DNA of 64,000 bases. It comes from Thermotoga sp. Ku-13t (GTDB lineage Bacteria > Thermotogota > Thermotogae > Thermotogales > DSM-5069). The translations under genes were made by a program, and so were the position numbers. Positions 20,548 through 26,598 of this stretch are shown piece after piece; positions within the stretch are counted from its first letter, which is position 1; every line of letters starts with the position of its first letter. The stretch is taken from positions 248,001 to 312,000 of the forward strand of contig NZ_LNFY01000010.1 of assembly GCF_011057685.1 (NCBI RefSeq). Direction: 5' to 3'. Under the pieces are notes generated by a model, which had not been told where the DNA came from, made no database searches, and was given only the letters and a program-made list of their open reading frames with translations.

Positions 20548-22031
20548 CGTCCGATCAACCTTCCTATGTCACTGAAGGTAACGAAGACCATCAGCGCTAT
20601 GAGCAGCAGAAAGCCTATGAAATGTATCAAATTTTCCACTTCTGGCTTGACCTTCCTCCTGCTCACCAACTCGATGAGAGAAAACACGATCCTTCCGCCG
20701 TCCAGTGCCGGGAGTGGCAACAGGTTGAATATGCCAAGGCTCATCGTGATCAGTGCAACGAGTGTCAGCACCGGTTCCAGCCCCACCCTTGCCGTCTCAC
20801 CGATGAACGCCACCAACCCTACTGGCCCCACGATCCCACCTGTTTCTGTGCCACGCAGGATTCCAAGGAGCGATCTGTACATTGTGATCAAAACGTTGTT
20901 GCACCTGTCCACGGCAGTGGCTATTGTCTCGAACGGATCTTTCGGTTTGAGGTTGGCCGTTTTCGATTCGAACACGCCCGGTGTCTCCAGAAGACTTTTT
21001 ACCAGCGCAGTGGGGACCTTCAACTGAACCTGTTGACCCTCCCTAAGCAGACCGACGGTCACCTCGCTCCCAAATCCTTGGCTGGCCCACACGATCAGAT
21101 CACCTTGAATCTCTATGTAAGCACCTCCATCCTGCGCTAGTGCGAGCTGATAGATCCTCGAAAGATCGACGTTGTTGTTCACCGTGACGTTTTCGACCCA
21201 TAAGAGTACATCCCCTTTCCTGAAAGGTTCGAAATCTTTTCTGAGAACGTTCGACACCGTGGCGAAATAAAAACCGAGTGCGTACTTGGCCGGTTCGTAC
21301 TGGTACTGCTTGAGCAGACCCTTCACAGTGCCGCTCGTTGTTTCGATCGATACGTAACTTTCCAGGAGGCTGTTGAGCTGTGCAGGGCTCAGAGATCTCC
21401 CTGATACGTTTTCTATTCTCGCTCCGACCTGAAATTCTCCATTCACATCTCTCAGCAGAATGAAGTGCGATTCTTCAAACATCTTCGGTACCGCTCTTAT
21501 GTTCAACTTTTCGCTGTTTCTGAGGACAGTTAACTCCACCGGACGACCTTTTCTTATGATCTGACTCACGGTGTAGTTGTCGTAAACTCTCCTGCCGTTG
21601 ATTTTCAGTATCAAATCCCCATCTCTGAGCCCCGCTTCGTAGGCAGGCCTTCCTGGCTCGACGTAAGCTACCGTCACTGCCGGTACACCCCACAGAGAGA
21701 CGATGAACAAGAACAACACATAACCTGCGAGTATCGAAAAAACAGGTCCTGCGAGGAAGATCAAAAGTCTTTGCCATGCAGGTTTCGAGTACAAACTGCC
21801 GGCTTCCTCTGCCTCGCTGGGATCTTCACCGGCAAGCCGAACGTACCCACCGAGAGGGAACACGTTTATTCTGAAAGTCGTTCTCCTGAACTTTTTCTGG
21901 TAGATCTTTGGACCGTAGCCGATCGCGAACTCCAGCACGTCCACTTTGAACAACCTTGCGAACGCAAAGTGCCCCAGCTCGTGCACAACGACCACGGCCA
22001 TGAATATGATCAGGAAGTACACGACAGCCAT
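20544..22031 (-). CDS. rseP: RseP-family site-2 intramembrane zinc metalloprotease
   Basis: 495 residues. The zinc site is [15 protein letters not shown] (HExxH at residues about 17-21) in helix 1, with the third ligand in the C-terminal [18 protein letters not shown] domain lies between ([21 protein letters not shown]). S2P proteases cut anti-sigma factors or leftover signal peptides within the membrane. The central part is longer than in short family members, with a second region that may be another PDZ ([13 protein letters not shown]). Overlaps the dxr end by 22 bases, an order (dxr-rseP) common in bacteria. Confidence 0.93.
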
Positions 22032-23101
22032 TCGATCACCTCTTCTGCAATCCTTCTACTCGCTCCATCCACATCCTTCAGATCTGACAGGTCCCTCACG
22101 TTGCCTTCTATCTTCCCGATTACTCTTTCGATGATCCTCGCAATGTCTGTGAATTTGATCCGACCTTTGAGAAACGCGTCCACGCACACCTCGTCGGCTG
22201 CGTTGTAAGCGGTCCTTTTAGCGTAGTCTTTCTCGATTTCGTAAGCAAGATAAAAAGCGGGATATCGGTCTCTGTCGACCCGCTCGAACTTCAACTGCGC
22301 TTCCAGCAAGTCTGGCCAGCTTCGCTGCTGGTAAAGTCTTTCTGGATATGTTAATCCGTAGGCAATTGGAACTCTCATATCGGGAAAACCAAGGTGCATT
22401 TTGATCGTTCCATCCCTCAGGAACACTGCCGCATGGACCAGACCTTCTTTGTGGATCAGCACCTCTATCTGACTCGCTCTGAGCTGAAAGAGTTCACACG
22501 CTTCGAGCACTTCGAAACCTTTGTTGACCATCGTCGCGGAATCGATCGTTATCCTCTTGCCCATCTTCCACACGGGATGTTTCAAAACATCTGACGGTTT
22601 TGCACGATCGAGTTCTTCCAGTTTCCAGTCTCTCAAAGCGCCGCCGGATGAGGTCAAAAGAAGCTTCTCGACGGAAGGTTCATAAAGTTGCATCACGGCA
22701 CTGTGTTCACTGTCGAGCGGTATGAGCTCGCAAGAAGTTTTTTCTTTCATCTGCCTGACGAGCCAGCCACCACACACGAGCGCTTCTTTGCTCGCCAGCA
22801 AAACTCTCCTTGAGGTTTCTATAGCCTTCAGAGTGATGGGGAGACTCACGAAACCCGGGATGCAAACCAATGTCACATCAGGTTTTTCTCGTTCGAGAAA
22901 GCCCTCGAGTTCCTCGTAACCTTCGGCCGTGCATATCAGCTCTGAAACATTGTACTTCTTCGCGAGTTTCTGGGCTAATTCCGCGTTTGTGTGGTACGTT
23001 CCTGCAATTATCTGAAAAGTTTTGATCTTTTCGATCACCTCGAGCGCCTGGGTGCCTATCGATCCTGTCATGCCCACGATCACGATGGTTCTTTCAGCCA
23101 T
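22010..23101 (-). CDS. dxr: 1-deoxy-D-xylulose 5-phosphate reductoisomerase
   Basis: 363 residues. First committed enzyme of the MEP pathway, converting DXP to MEP with NADPH and a divalent metal. NADPH motif GMTGSIGTQALEV at the N-terminus, ALASKEALVCGG-like segment (LLASKEALVCGGW), metal site in LDSEHSAVMQL, and the flexible loop/active region SSGGALRD and HPVWKMGKRITIDSATMVNKG. Slightly short (370-400 is usual). Overlaps thiN by 22 bases upstream and rseP by 22 bases downstream. Confidence 0.95.
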   Translation of the reverse strand: MAERTIVIVGMTGSIGTQALEVIEKIKTFQIIAGTYHTNAELAQKLAKKYNVSELICTAEGYEELEGFLEREKPDVTLVCIPGFVSLPITLKAIETSRRVLLASKEALVCGGWLVRQMKEKTSCELIPLDSEHSAVMQLYEPSVEKLLLTSSGGALRDWKLEELDRAKPSDVLKHPVWKMGKRITIDSATMVNKGFEVLEACELFQLRASQIEVLIHKEGLVHAAVFLRDGTIKMHLGFPDMRVPIAYGLTYPERLYQQRSWPDLLEAQLKFERVDRDRYPAFYLAYEIEKDYAKRTAYNAADEVCVDAFLKGRIKFTDIARIIERVIGKIEGNVRDLSDLKDVDGASRRIAEEVIEWLSCTS

Positions 23102-23709
23102 CTGAAGTAAGCCACCTTTCCCTTTCCAACGGCTATTCTAACCTTTGATGAAACTGCAACGTTGCTGATCCCGTAAGGATGATCGCACGGCATGTCCTTC
23201 TGGGTGATCTCGTATTTGAAGCCTCTCAGCGTTACGCGCTCTGCATCTCCTGCGATCGGGACTATGGACCATTTCTCGTTCACGTTTGCATCTAATTCGG
23301 TTTCGCTCGAAACGACGCCGACGATCAACTGCTCGCTCCTGGCTGTGATGTCGATGTCGAAAGAACCCATCAGATACAACAGTGCGAGCAGCATGTCCAG
23401 TCTGTCTCCCATCCAGCAGAATATGTCTATCGATTTGGCTCCTCTCTCGACGGCCTTCCTCAGCGCGAGTTCTGTGTCTATTTCGTCCTTCTCCTTCGGA
23501 AACAGAAACACCTCACACCCCAGCTTCTTCAATTTGTCTAGATCTGATTCTTCCAGAGAATCCCCATCTCCAACGAACATGTCAGGCACCACGCCCGCAC
23601 TCAAAAGCTTTTTCGCCCCACCATCCACCGCGATGATCAGGTCGTACGCAGCAAGATCTATGCTTCCAAGATCTTCGCAATCACCGTTTAAAAACATCGC
23701 TACTTTCAC
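23080..23709 (-). CDS. thiN: Thiamine pyrophosphokinase
   Basis: 209 residues, GTG start after GGGAGG. Transfers pyrophosphate from ATP to thiamine, giving TPP. The family pattern is visible: IIAVDGGAKKLL, PDMFVGDGDSL, FPKEKDEIDTELALRKAVE and the later GDRLDMLLALLYLM segment (usually GxRxDHxLA.. with His; here Leu). The C-terminal half holds a beta-rich thiamine-binding domain with LRGFKYEI. The His to Met/Leu change in the R-x-D-H motif is worth noting, but the rest is regular. Overlaps the sigma-54-like gene by 29 bases. Confidence 0.88.
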   Translation of the reverse strand: MKVAMFLNGDCEDLGSIDLAAYDLIIAVDGGAKKLLSAGVVPDMFVGDGDSLEESDLDKLKKLGCEVFLFPKEKDEIDTELALRKAVERGAKSIDIFCWMGDRLDMLLALLYLMGSFDIDITARSEQLIVGVVSSETELDANVNEKWSIVPIAGDAERVTLRGFKYEITQKDMPCDHPYGISNVAVSSKVRIAVGKGKVAYFRWLKEPS

Positions 23710-24637
23710 GGAGCAGTCCTCCCAGCAGATTTCTGTACTTGTTCACCGTGCGTCTGCTCACCTCGATGCCACGTTCTTGAAGCAAGATTCTCAGCTTTTC
23801 ATCACTCGCACGAGGGTTTTCTTTCAAAAGCCCATACAGCAGCGGCAGGAAGAATTTCGTTTCTATGTTTCTGCCAAAAAAGGTGTGCATGGGGAAAATT
23901 CCAGATGGCGTTTTCACGTACTTCTGCGAGACAGCTTTCGAAACGGTTGAAACGTGCAATCCCAATTCTTCTGCCGCATCGACAAACTTCGTCTTGCTTG
24001 GATAAACTGATTTACCCAGCAGGAAATCCACGTTCTTCCTGACGATCATGTTCGCAAGGCAGAGCATGATCTCTTTTCTGCGTTGAAGGAGTTCGACGAT
24101 GTAAAGGAAGAATTTCTCCTGTTTCTTGTCGTTACCAACTGAAGAGATCGCGAGCTCTTTAACGTGCACCGATAGATCTTCATGGATTACCACATCGGGT
24201 TGCACGTAAGTGGCACCTCTTCCAAAACCAGAAACCGAGCCCTCGAACAATCCATCGGGACCAACGTCTTTGATGGCTTCGAGCAGTTTCTCGAGTTCTT
24301 CCAAACTGATGGAGAACTTCTCACAGATCTCCTTCTTATCTACCAGCAGATTCCCACGCTCATCCAGATTGTAGACGATGTACTCTGCCACTGGTTCCTG
24401 CCGTTCGTCAAGGCGGAGCAACGCGATGGCGTCCATGAGATCTTCCTGAAGAGACCTTTCTCCTGGCACTAATCTTTCGACGAATGGCGATCCAGGTTCC
24501 AGGTCTTCCAGATCGAGACTGACGTACGGGAAAAAGTCCTGCAAGAACTGCGCAAGCTGCCCGACTGGAAGTTCGACGAACTTGAAAAAGAGCTCCTTGC
24601 TCGAAAAATCCCTCGCGAGGTCGAGTTTTAGTTTCAT
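23681..24637 (-). CDS. Short, divergent sigma-54 (RpoN)-like protein
   Basis: 318 residues against 400-500 for normal sigma-54. The C-terminal DNA-binding half is clear: a helix-turn-helix at 220-255 (LGLHVSTVSKAVSQKYVKTPSGIF) and the RpoN box at 295-302 (RRTVNKYR, consensus ARRTVAKYR). The start of the core-binding domain is present (SLQEDLMDAIALL...N-L-D-E-R-G-N-L), but the usual D-P-x-G-x-G-A-R segment reads VGPDGLFEGS and roughly 100 residues after it are missing before YVQPDVVIHEDLSVHV. Region I, normally rich in Gln and Leu, is only about 35 residues and lacks that composition. It may be a minimal sigma-54 or a degenerate regulator. No AAA+ activator is in the window. Confidence 0.82.
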   Translation of the reverse strand: MKLKLDLARDFSSKELFFKFVELPVGQLAQFLQDFFPYVSLDLEDLEPGSPFVERLVPGERSLQEDLMDAIALLRLDERQEPVAEYIVYNLDERGNLLVDKKEICEKFSISLEELEKLLEAIKDVGPDGLFEGSVSGFGRGATYVQPDVVIHEDLSVHVKELAISSVGNDKKQEKFFLYIVELLQRRKEIMLCLANMIVRKNVDFLLGKSVYPSKTKFVDAAEELGLHVSTVSKAVSQKYVKTPSGIFPMHTFFGRNIETKFFLPLLYGLLKENPRASDEKLRILLQERGIEVSRRTVNKYRNLLGGLLRESSDVFKR

Positions 24638-24670: not shown

Positions 24671-25663
24671 TCACAGTATGAACATGGCGTCGCCGAAAGA
24701 ATAGAACCTGTAACGTTGTTTCACTGCTTCCTGGTACGCGTTCATGATGAGCTGATGTCCAGCGAAGGCACAGACGAGCATCAACAAGGTTGAACGCGGC
24801 AAGTGAAAGTTCGTGATGAGTGCGTCCACAATCTTGAATTCGAACGGTGGATAGATGAACAGATCGGTCTCGCCTTCGGTCAGGTTGGTCCTCGCAAAGC
24901 TTTCGAGCGTTCGTACCACGGTCGTGCCGACCGCGATGATTCTGTGCCCCTGCGACTTGGCCTGTCTTATGATTTCAACAACCCTGGGAGGTATCGAATA
25001 CTTTTCAGAATGCATCCGGTGCTGTTCTATGTTCTCCGTCTTTACCGGTCTGAAGGTTCCAATACCCACGTGCAGGGTCACCTCAACCGTTTGCACGCCC
25101 ATCGAGCGGATCTTTTCCAGCAAAGTTTCCGTGAAGTGAAAACCGGCGGTGGGGGCCGCTATTGAACCCACCACCTTTGCATAAACGGTCTGGTACCTCT
25201 CAAGTGGTATCTTCGTCTTAACGTATGGTGGGATCGGTGCTTCGCCGACCTTCAGCAGCTCTTCGTCGTCCACGTTGAACTCGATCAACCGCATTCCTTC
25301 TTCACATCTGTCCAGACATTTCGCCACGATGCCGCTGCTCAAATGCGCCAGAACGCCTGGTTTGAACTTCTTGGCCGGTCTCACCAGGCACTTCCAAGTT
25401 TTTTCGCCGACTTTCTGAACCAGCAGAATCTCGATCTGTTTTTCGTTGATGTGACCGAACAATCTTGCCGGGATCACCTTGCTGTTGTTCAGCACCAGCA
25501 CATCGCCCGGCTTCAAATACTCGATGATGTCGCGGAAGATCCTGTGCTCTATTAGACCCGTGTCTCTGTGAACTACCATCAGTCTTGAGCTGTCCCTCGG
25601 TTCTACGGGAATCTGGGCTATCAACTCTTCTGGCAGATAGTAATCGAAATCCGAGAGCTTCAC
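24671..25663 (-). CDS. queA: S-adenosylmethionine:tRNA ribosyltransferase-isomerase QueA
   Basis: 330 residues from GTG 25663, set by GGGGAGG 8 bases upstream and by the family's usual start (K-L-S-D-F-D-Y-x-L-P). Makes epoxyqueuosine at tRNA position 34. Motifs: LPEELIAQIPVEPRDSSRLMVV, PGDVLVLNNSKVIPARL, APTAGFHFTE, VTLHVGIGTFRPV, H-S-E-x-Y-x-I and ALITNFHLPRSTLLMLV. GTGA overlap with the upstream nuclease-like gene. The next enzyme of the pathway, QueH, is encoded at 48554-49114. Confidence 0.95.
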   Translation of the reverse strand: MKLSDFDYYLPEELIAQIPVEPRDSSRLMVVHRDTGLIEHRIFRDIIEYLKPGDVLVLNNSKVIPARLFGHINEKQIEILLVQKVGEKTWKCLVRPAKKFKPGVLAHLSSGIVAKCLDRCEEGMRLIEFNVDDEELLKVGEAPIPPYVKTKIPLERYQTVYAKVVGSIAAPTAGFHFTETLLEKIRSMGVQTVEVTLHVGIGTFRPVKTENIEQHRMHSEKYSIPPRVVEIIRQAKSQGHRIIAVGTTVVRTLESFARTNLTEGETDLFIYPPFEFKIVDALITNFHLPRSTLLMLVCAFAGHQLIMNAYQEAVKQRYRFYSFGDAMFIL

Positions 25664-26598
25664 TGGAAGAACCTCCCCAGATCTATTCTGTCGACCCTGC
25701 TGTTCCATTCCTCGAACCTGTCGTTGCTCACCACGACTGCTTTCTTCTCGAGTGCGATAGACAGTATGAGTTCGTCCGCAGGAGAGTGAAAGTACGTTCT
25801 TTCTGCGTAGAACCACTCGCTGTCTTCGTTGAAGATGTATCTGATGTTTTTGTCGAAGGCCAGATAAAAAGGATAATATAACTCCTTAAAACTCGCAAGT
25901 TGTTCAAGCACAAAATCTATGTCGCTGAGTTTTCCTCTCAGCCTCGCGATGTTGCTCCCATCGAGAACCACCGGTCGGACAATCTTTCTAACCAGTACTG
26001 CTTTGACGTAGGGATGGCACCTCAACTTCGAAAGGACCTCATGTTTCGAAATTTCGTCGAGTTCCCTGAAGAGCTCGGCGAGCACCTCCACATCGCTGAC
26101 GTGCGTCACTCGAACCGAGTTGATCTGTTCGGCGAGCCATTCGATGCCCTCACCGCCACCCTTCATCACTGCCGCCTGAAGCTCGAGAAAATCTTCCAGT
26201 TTTGAATCCAGAAGTAGCTGTCTCGCTTTTTTCACGAAAGTTTCGACGGCCATATCTTCGATGAGCTGGATCAATTCGTCCGATGGCGGAGGATATCTCT
26301 TCGGATTCAACCAGAAGAACGGTTCGAGCCCAGCGATCTCGGGCAAGTTGACCGACCTTGAAAATCTCTTCAATCTTTCGATCAATGTACCCTTACCATA
26401 AACGAGCTGGCGGAGTGAGAGCAACGTATGCTGGCAAAGTTGAGCGGATCTAATTTGGCCCAGCGAATTCTGAATGAAAAGAATGCCGGCTCCCTCATCG
26501 ATTTCGAGCCGTCGCAAATGCTGAACCTGGTTCTGTCTTCTGGTCTGCAGGATCTTCAGCCTCGTCAAGAAAGCCGGATCATACACGTCGAATCGCAC
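25660..26598 (-). CDS. Putative ribonuclease with a Zc3h12a-like NYN/PIN domain
   Basis: 312 residues. The C-terminal part (about 205-312) matches the NYN/PIN fold of Zc3h12a (Regnase)-type ribonucleases: VVLDGSNIA (Asp213, Asn216), YLAFDK (Asp249), SPADELILSIALEKKAVVVSNDRFEEW (Asp275, Asp293), giving the set of acidic residues expected for a metal-dependent RNase. The N-terminal 200 residues are helical and not recognised; they start with DVYDPAFLTRLKILQTRRQNQVQ. It overlaps queA by the GTGA junction, so a link to tRNA handling is possible but unproven. Confidence 0.72.
   Translation of the reverse strand: MRFDVYDPAFLTRLKILQTRRQNQVQHLRRLEIDEGAGILFIQNSLGQIRSAQLCQHTLLSLRQLVYGKGTLIERLKRFSRSVNLPEIAGLEPFFWLNPKRYPPPSDELIQLIEDMAVETFVKKARQLLLDSKLEDFLELQAAVMKGGGEGIEWLAEQINSVRVTHVSDVEVLAELFRELDEISKHEVLSKLRCHPYVKAVLVRKIVRPVVLDGSNIARLRGKLSDIDFVLEQLASFKELYYPFYLAFDKNIRYIFNEDSEWFYAERTYFHSPADELILSIALEKKAVVVSNDRFEEWNSRVDRIDLGRFFQ

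Follow-up and report, generated by a model that had tools for sequence, protein, structure and literature searches.

The 64,000-nucleotide stretch considered here (the window; C10:248001-312000 of G000, a 2.08-Mb, 99.5%-complete Thermotogota genome) carries on its minus strand a gene for a shortened sigma-54 (RpoN), which we call mini-RpoN. The original prediction, made from the letters of the window, described a minimal sigma-54-like protein that might use -12/-24 promoters with altered polymerase or activator contact, or act as a repressor. Comparison across the phylum leads us to regard mini-RpoN as probably a working, activator-dependent sigma-54 with retuned promoter spacing. Its parts, in window coordinates, are as follows.

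23681..24637, minus strand: mini-rpoN, 318 aa, the sole sigma-54 gene of the genome
24503..24637, minus strand: region I (residues 1-45), shortened, aligning with canonical region I; predicted helices at 13-22 and 25-35
24245..24457, minus strand: N-terminal subdomain of the core-binding domain (CBD; residues 61-131), the sole part of the CBD kept; Pfam CBD positions 3-80 of 185; four model helices
24191..24244, minus strand: junction (residues 132-149) left by the absence of about 61 CBD C-subdomain residues, judged by alignment with RpoN of E. coli and with full-length homologues from Thermotogota
24035..24127, minus strand: extra-long helix (ELH; residues 171-201), with invariant R187 equivalent to E. 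coli R336
23927..23986, minus strand: helix-turn-helix (HTH; residues 218-237), the -12 reader, with K at the R383 position in G000
23732..23758, minus strand: RpoN box SRRTVNKYR (residues 294-302), the -24 reader

The start codon of mini-rpoN, an ATG at 24637, is preceded two codons upstream by an in-frame TGA, which fixes the N-terminus and makes a longer region I impossible. Pfam recognizes the DNA-binding half clearly (Sigma54_DBD, 88.6 bits against a cut-off of 22.8), the Sigma54_CBD match stops at profile position 80, and the AID profile for region I finds no match in the protein; the NCBIfam rpoN equivalog TIGR02395 scores 137.4 bits, below its cut-off of 277.35. Aligned with E. coli RpoN, mini-RpoN has 42 versus 50 residues in region I, 19 versus 68 in RII, 69 versus 72 in the CBD N-subdomain, 4 versus 65 in the CBD C-subdomain, 37 versus 65 in the strand/linker segment from DPRPG to residue 320, and 27 versus 38 in the linker between the HTH and the RpoN domain. 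The last three deficits sum to about 100 residues, the figure originally given for the loss from the core-binding domain, and the RpoN box lies where it had been placed (RRTVNKYR at 295-302). Region I had been put at about 35 residues and not Gln-rich. It is indeed short and Gln-poor; a stretch of about 42 residues nevertheless aligns with canonical region I, keeps conserved L/P/E positions and is predicted to form two helices. The DPxGxGAR motif has decayed to GPDGLFEG. R187, the equivalent of the E. coli residue R336 with which region I is partnered on the ELH, is invariant in the phylum alignment; mutation of R336 bypasses activators (PMC5505868, PMC7057263). An AlphaFold2 model built from a 39-sequence alignment (mean pLDDT 81) has two region I helices, four helices in the CBD N-subdomain, short strands, a 31-residue ELH, an HTH and an RpoN domain. 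Its top match in the PDB is SigN in an RNA polymerase promoter complex (8f1k, E 5e-14), and the isolated Aquifex CBD (2k9m) aligns with it over only about 75 of 130 residues.

The shortening is graded across the phylum. A Sigma54_DBD match at E<=0.001 is present in 69 of the 103 Thermotogota genomes; some of the weak matches are probably other HTH proteins. We use labels for families: f1 is the window's own, taken as Pseudothermotoga, and f2 is Fervidobacterium (named relatives were recovered with the mini-RpoN protein). RpoN measures about 420-445 aa in f6 and f8, 402 in f4 and f5, mostly about 385-430 in f9, about 353-371 in f10 and f11, and about 290-333 in f1 and f2, with a few ORF lengths deviating through start choice or fusion. 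The CBD C-subdomain shrinks from 65 residues in E. coli to 55-57 in f6 and f8, 41-44 in f4 and f5, 13-16 in f9, f10 and f11, and 4-7 in f1 and f2. The HTH-RpoN linker has 38 residues in each of the ten f8 proteins, as in E. coli and f6, 33-34 in f4 and f5, and 27 throughout f9, f10, f11, f2 and f1 (one exception has 28). RpoN of E. coli, f6 and f8 carries an 'IPSS'-type C-terminal tail, which reads FPSS or IPGS in two f8 variants that lay outside the search pattern; it is absent from all other families. Region I falls to 37-41 aligned residues in most f2 proteins. The five families that share loss of the CBD C-subdomain, the 27-residue linker and lack of the tail form one clade in the RpoN tree (86% bootstrap; 100% for f1 plus f2). 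Mini-RpoN is the ortholog of full-length Thermotogota RpoN, sharing with it the ancestral thiN neighbour, and stands at one end of a graded reduction; it is not a paralogue. A genome-wide Sigma54_DBD search of G000 returned mini-RpoN alone (E 8.6e-25), with no second rpoN. In a scan of other phyla, the shortest RpoNs were all at least 401 aa apart from a contig-edge fragment, and no second origin of the reduction was found.

The trimmed clade also differs in its promoters. Gene boundaries were set by picking the longest ORFs, and sites were called promoter-placed by their distance to a start. In f8, where RpoN is full-length, a set of exact TGGCAY-N5-TTGCW sites typically lies 40-60 nt upstream of starts, with placed sites at fabF (two genera), secreted proteins and an aminotransferase gene of G012. 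Among 89 exact N5 matches in mini-RpoN genomes, 86 fall within ORFs, three are intergenic and none is promoter-placed, compared with 8 of 21 judged placed in f8 (Fisher p=5e-7). The canonical form TGGCAY-N5-TTGC (GG-N10-GC) fails to describe promoters in mini-RpoN genomes, which have N4 sites instead; canonical matches in G000 and its mini-RpoN relatives were rejected as promoters because they sit inside genes, and a conserved one at glnA proved to be coding sequence. When spacing was left free, f9 gave N4 in 16 of 63 sites and N5 in 7, versus 8 and 20 in f8 (p=0.005). About 12 of the 16 N4 sites in f9 are promoter-placed; some eight of these precede genes resembling type IV pilins, and one precedes an aminotransferase gene. 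The N5 sites examined there are inside genes. At fabF, the f10 genome G039 has N4 and the f8 orthologs N5. On the sites found, full-length lineages use TGGCAY-N5-TTGC, the trimmed clade TGGCAY-N4-TTGC, and f1 TTGGCACG-N3-TTGATA, in which the -12 element has changed too.

The clearest view of the change comes from a single gene, a class I/II aminotransferase (P0002) matched in 31 of 31 genomes searched. Its upstream region in the f8 genome G012 reads TTGGCATGATTTTTGCT, with N5. The form TGGCAY-N4-TTGCT is found in f9 (4/4; G019, G021, G023, G025), f11 (1/1; G101) and the f2 genomes with mini-RpoN (11/11), and all ten f1 genomes have TGGCACG-N3-TTGAT, which keeps the N4 spacing with the -12 GC changed to GA; in G057 the site is at the second of two paralogues. 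In G000 the element is TTGGCACGACTTTGATA (G000:C1:932090-932106, minus strand, outside the window), and 83 nt upstream of it lies the palindrome TTTGCGCGCAAA. Palindromes of the TTGCATGCAA type stand 92-96 nt upstream of the box in f2 and 83-86 nt upstream in nine of ten f1 genomes, about one helical turn apart; the remaining f1 genome, which has two palindromes, has one at 98 nt. Each of the 21 mini-RpoN genomes examined has, ahead of this gene, a conserved, retuned -24/-12 element with a palindrome upstream of it; -12/-24 sites were among the things the original prediction proposed to look for. Reading of 460 kb (22%) of G000 gave no further promoter of the f1 type, which suggests a very small regulon.

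Several observations accompany these sites. In G019 (L518) the aminotransferase promoter region is tandemly duplicated, -24/-12 element included. In f1 regions of the L525 type, the palindromes lie between the aminotransferase and a divergent class V aminotransferase-like gene, and both genes may be controlled by the same enhancer-binding protein (EBP). The f9 sites before type IV pilin/pseudopilin-like genes (L412, L416, L459, L461, L464, L465, L470, L471) predict a pilin-centred sigma-54 regulon in that family. The fabF-like genes, with N5 promoters in f8 (L317 in G012, L335 in G008) and N4 in f10 (L473 in G039), suggest that fatty acid synthesis is under sigma-54 control in part of the Thermotogota. 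Repeats bearing TTGGCACACTGCATCTTGCA in G025:C1 (e.g. 1797439, 1809256, 1885559, 1928690) resemble a dispersed element rather than promoters.

The activator that would serve mini-RpoN is conserved with it. Each f1 or f2 genome examined has one EBP of about 570 aa with the architecture PAS-PAS-AAA+-Fis, orthologous to that of G000 (L002 739-2463; 243 bits to PF00158, GAFTGA, two PAS domains, Fis HTH). In every mini-RpoN genome examined in these families this sole canonical EBP keeps GAFTGA or GSFTGA. GAFTGA is the region I-contacting loop, and open complexes require each of its residues (PMC7057263). Eight genomes of two f2 genera (G077-G084) provide a natural deletion: rpoN was not found in them, and psuG abuts yfcE in all eight, the same pair between which rpoN sits in most of the other inspected f2 genomes. 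A diverged rpoN was considered for these genera and set aside, the best match being a LacI-type HTH gene and synteny then showing clean excision. G077-G084 make up a single clade (support 0.99) whose sister, G085, has both rpoN and GAFTGA. Loss of GAFTGA is confined to them: their EBP loops read GAFLGA, GAFFGA, GTFIGT, DAFMGT, EPFLD or less, with Walker A and B kept, and identity is 47% in the loop versus 79% in the remaining AAA+ domain, compared with 83% versus 87% in f2 genomes with rpoN. At their aminotransferase genes the -24/-12 element is gone. The palindrome is retained but is now preceded, at a distance of exactly 39 nt, by TATTATAGAAT, a sigma-70 -10-like sequence, which places the palindrome downstream of the promoter in a repressor position. 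Because the loop is kept with rpoN and decays without it, the activator very probably still makes contact with region I of mini-RpoN. The search for AAA+ partners proposed in the original prediction has yielded a canonical activator, and a loss of activator contact is not supported.

Other features of the EBP genes were noted. G000 encodes a second sigma-54-activator-like AAA+ protein among small unknown ORFs (L003 1081-2190; G000:C9, ~65004-65444; 120 bits to PF00158), with the loop decayed to GAYTDA, no Fis HTH detected and NorR/RtcR as the nearest models; matches about as strong are present in some rpoN-lacking Thermotogota genomes. In two f1 genera (L136-L140; G057, G062-G065) a TetR-like gene and a cluster of ketoacyl-synthase-like, CoA-metabolism and amino-acid ABC transporter genes lie downstream of the EBP gene. 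No sigma-54-like site was found beside the EBP gene or rpoN; the EBP gene of G062 has a sigma-70-like promoter.

We propose, with less assurance than the function itself but as the better bet, that a Thermotogota clade uses a second sigma-54 geometry, in which the CBD C-subdomain and C-terminal tail are missing, the RpoN domain is repositioned and the -24 and -12 elements lie 1 bp closer; that in Pseudothermotoga the -12 GC became GA and the system shrank to a single sigma with a single activator and perhaps just one promoter; and that it was lost in a related clade. The history and mechanism that we regard as probable are as follows. Along one Thermotogota lineage RpoN lost its CBD C-subdomain together with the 'IPSS' tail and 11 HTH-RpoN linker residues, and in f1 and f2 region I and the CBD-ELH linker were trimmed further. 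Mini-RpoN would hold core polymerase through its CBD N-subdomain, ELH and HTH and bind half-sites 1 bp closer together (TGGCAY-N4-TTGC, or the f1 form), the RpoN domain, freed from the CBD, presumably docking closer to the HTH. Loss of linker and CBD would then be what changes the spacing, with the C-subdomain, tail and linker not separable from sequence. The genome's sole PAS-PAS-AAA+-Fis activator would bind the aminotransferase palindrome, one of those about 83-98 bp upstream, and drive opening, so that transcription of this gene, the sole target identified, would run through mini-RpoN and the EBP.

Part of the original suggestion, a sigma-54 on -12/-24-type promoters with altered polymerase contact, agrees with this proposal, since the CBD C-subdomain is gone. 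The other part, a repressor role, is not supported. A DNA-binding repressor or a decaying remnant, without productive polymerase binding, could account for the loss of half of the CBD, most of RII and part of region I, and for exact N5 sites that are almost all within ORFs and never promoter-placed. It is nevertheless decidedly unlikely: the CBD N-subdomain, the ELH with R336, the HTH and the RpoN box are conserved across 21 genomes, as are the -24, the -12 and the upstream palindrome of the target promoter, and a repressor would not need the GAFTGA that the EBP keeps only alongside rpoN. We consider it highly unlikely that mini-RpoN bypasses its activator and acts constitutively. Region-I deletions do dispense with activators on pre-opened templates (PMC5505868), and region I is shortened here, but both of its predicted helices and R336 are kept, GAFTGA is conserved solely in genomes with rpoN, and the palindromes hold a near-constant upstream distance.

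A further possibility is that mini-RpoN functions like sigma-54 and the spacing shift is a by-product of a few drifting promoters, the reader itself not being retuned. The regulon of f1 and f2 looks tiny, the -12 element has drifted in f1, and the f10 evidence for spacing is one gene. This explanation is unlikely in view of f9, which has several EBPs and about a dozen placed N4 sites, the N5 sites examined being inside genes, and of the aminotransferase promoter, where the N5 spacing of the full-length lineage is replaced by N4 across 26 trimmed-clade genomes. Some observations count against the retuned sigma-54 that we prefer. Two f10 genomes have no site at the aminotransferase gene, so that in f10 just fabF of G039 shows N4; the f1 promoter form rests on one gene per genome, in related genomes that are not independent; and gene calls from longest ORFs are crude near promoters. 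In sigma-54 promoters no part is normally better conserved than the -12 GC, which weighs on TTGAT. Residues of the HTH and RpoN box alone do not predict the shift: as a cause of altered recognition they were rejected, N459 tracking the trimmed clade and SRRTVNKYR occurring also in full-length Firmicutes RpoN (in a search biased to that peptide).

The neighbours of mini-rpoN in the window are listed below.

22010..23101, minus strand: dxr, downstream neighbour (label from the original prediction)
23080..23709, minus strand: thiN, thiamine pyrophosphokinase, overlapping rpoN by 29 nt; an ancestral rpoN neighbour in the phylum
24671..25816, minus strand: queA-like gene, directly upstream of rpoN (name inferred from sequence)

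This setting had been called unusual. The adjacency of thiN and rpoN in f8, f9, f10, f11, f5 and f1 indicates instead that it is ancestral in Thermotogota. In the f10 genome G041 (L062 6746-8473) the two genes are fused in a single frame, a 575-aa ORF with Sigma54_AID, CBD and DBD followed by TPK domains.

Sigma-54 has been reported in some Thermotogae (PMC3162934) and annotated in Kosmotoga olearia as Kole_1408 (PMC5674127), and Thermotogota are unmentioned in the main text of a 2025 survey of sigma-54 regulons across 16 phyla (PMC12316311). A search limited to an open-access library, without subscription papers, gave no description of this truncation or of the spacing change. The -24/-12 spacing has been described as strict for every sigma-54 promoter, and a network of RpoN domain, CBD and polymerase has been credited with setting it (PMC5505868). 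In Thermotogota part of that network has been removed naturally and the spacing has changed alongside, so that what sets the spacing becomes directly testable. The comparison suggests that half of the CBD is dispensable. It also suggests a path for an activator/sigma pair, through shrinkage and loss of the contact loop to replacement by sigma-70-like control. The shifted spacing explains why standard motif scans would miss any sigma-54 regulon in mini-RpoN organisms.

Mini-RpoN shares predicted region I helices, the CBD N-subdomain, R336 on the ELH, the HTH and the RpoN box with RpoN of E. coli, Klebsiella and Aquifex, and its system shares a GAFTGA AAA+ partner, a -24 TGGCAC half-site and a putative upstream activator site with canonical sigma-54 systems. 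Unlike canonical RpoN, it lacks the CBD C-subdomain, the IPSS tail and most of RII, and has a 27-residue linker, promoters whose spacing is shorter by 1 bp and, in f1, a -12 TTGAT. The RpoNs of f9, f10 and f11 resemble it in the missing C-subdomain, the linker and N4 promoters, but they keep a full-length region I and the CBD-ELH segment and work among several EBPs, with pilin-centred targets in f9. The truncated RpoN of Neisseria (mentioned in PMC12316311) is likewise naturally shortened. Among TyrR-type EBPs, members with GAFTGA are linked to sigma-54 and others, without it, act at sigma-70 promoters (PMC6375630), a division that resembles the Thermotogota EBP; in Thermotogota, however, a single family-level clade shows the switch, accompanied by the clean excision of rpoN and by a replaced promoter.
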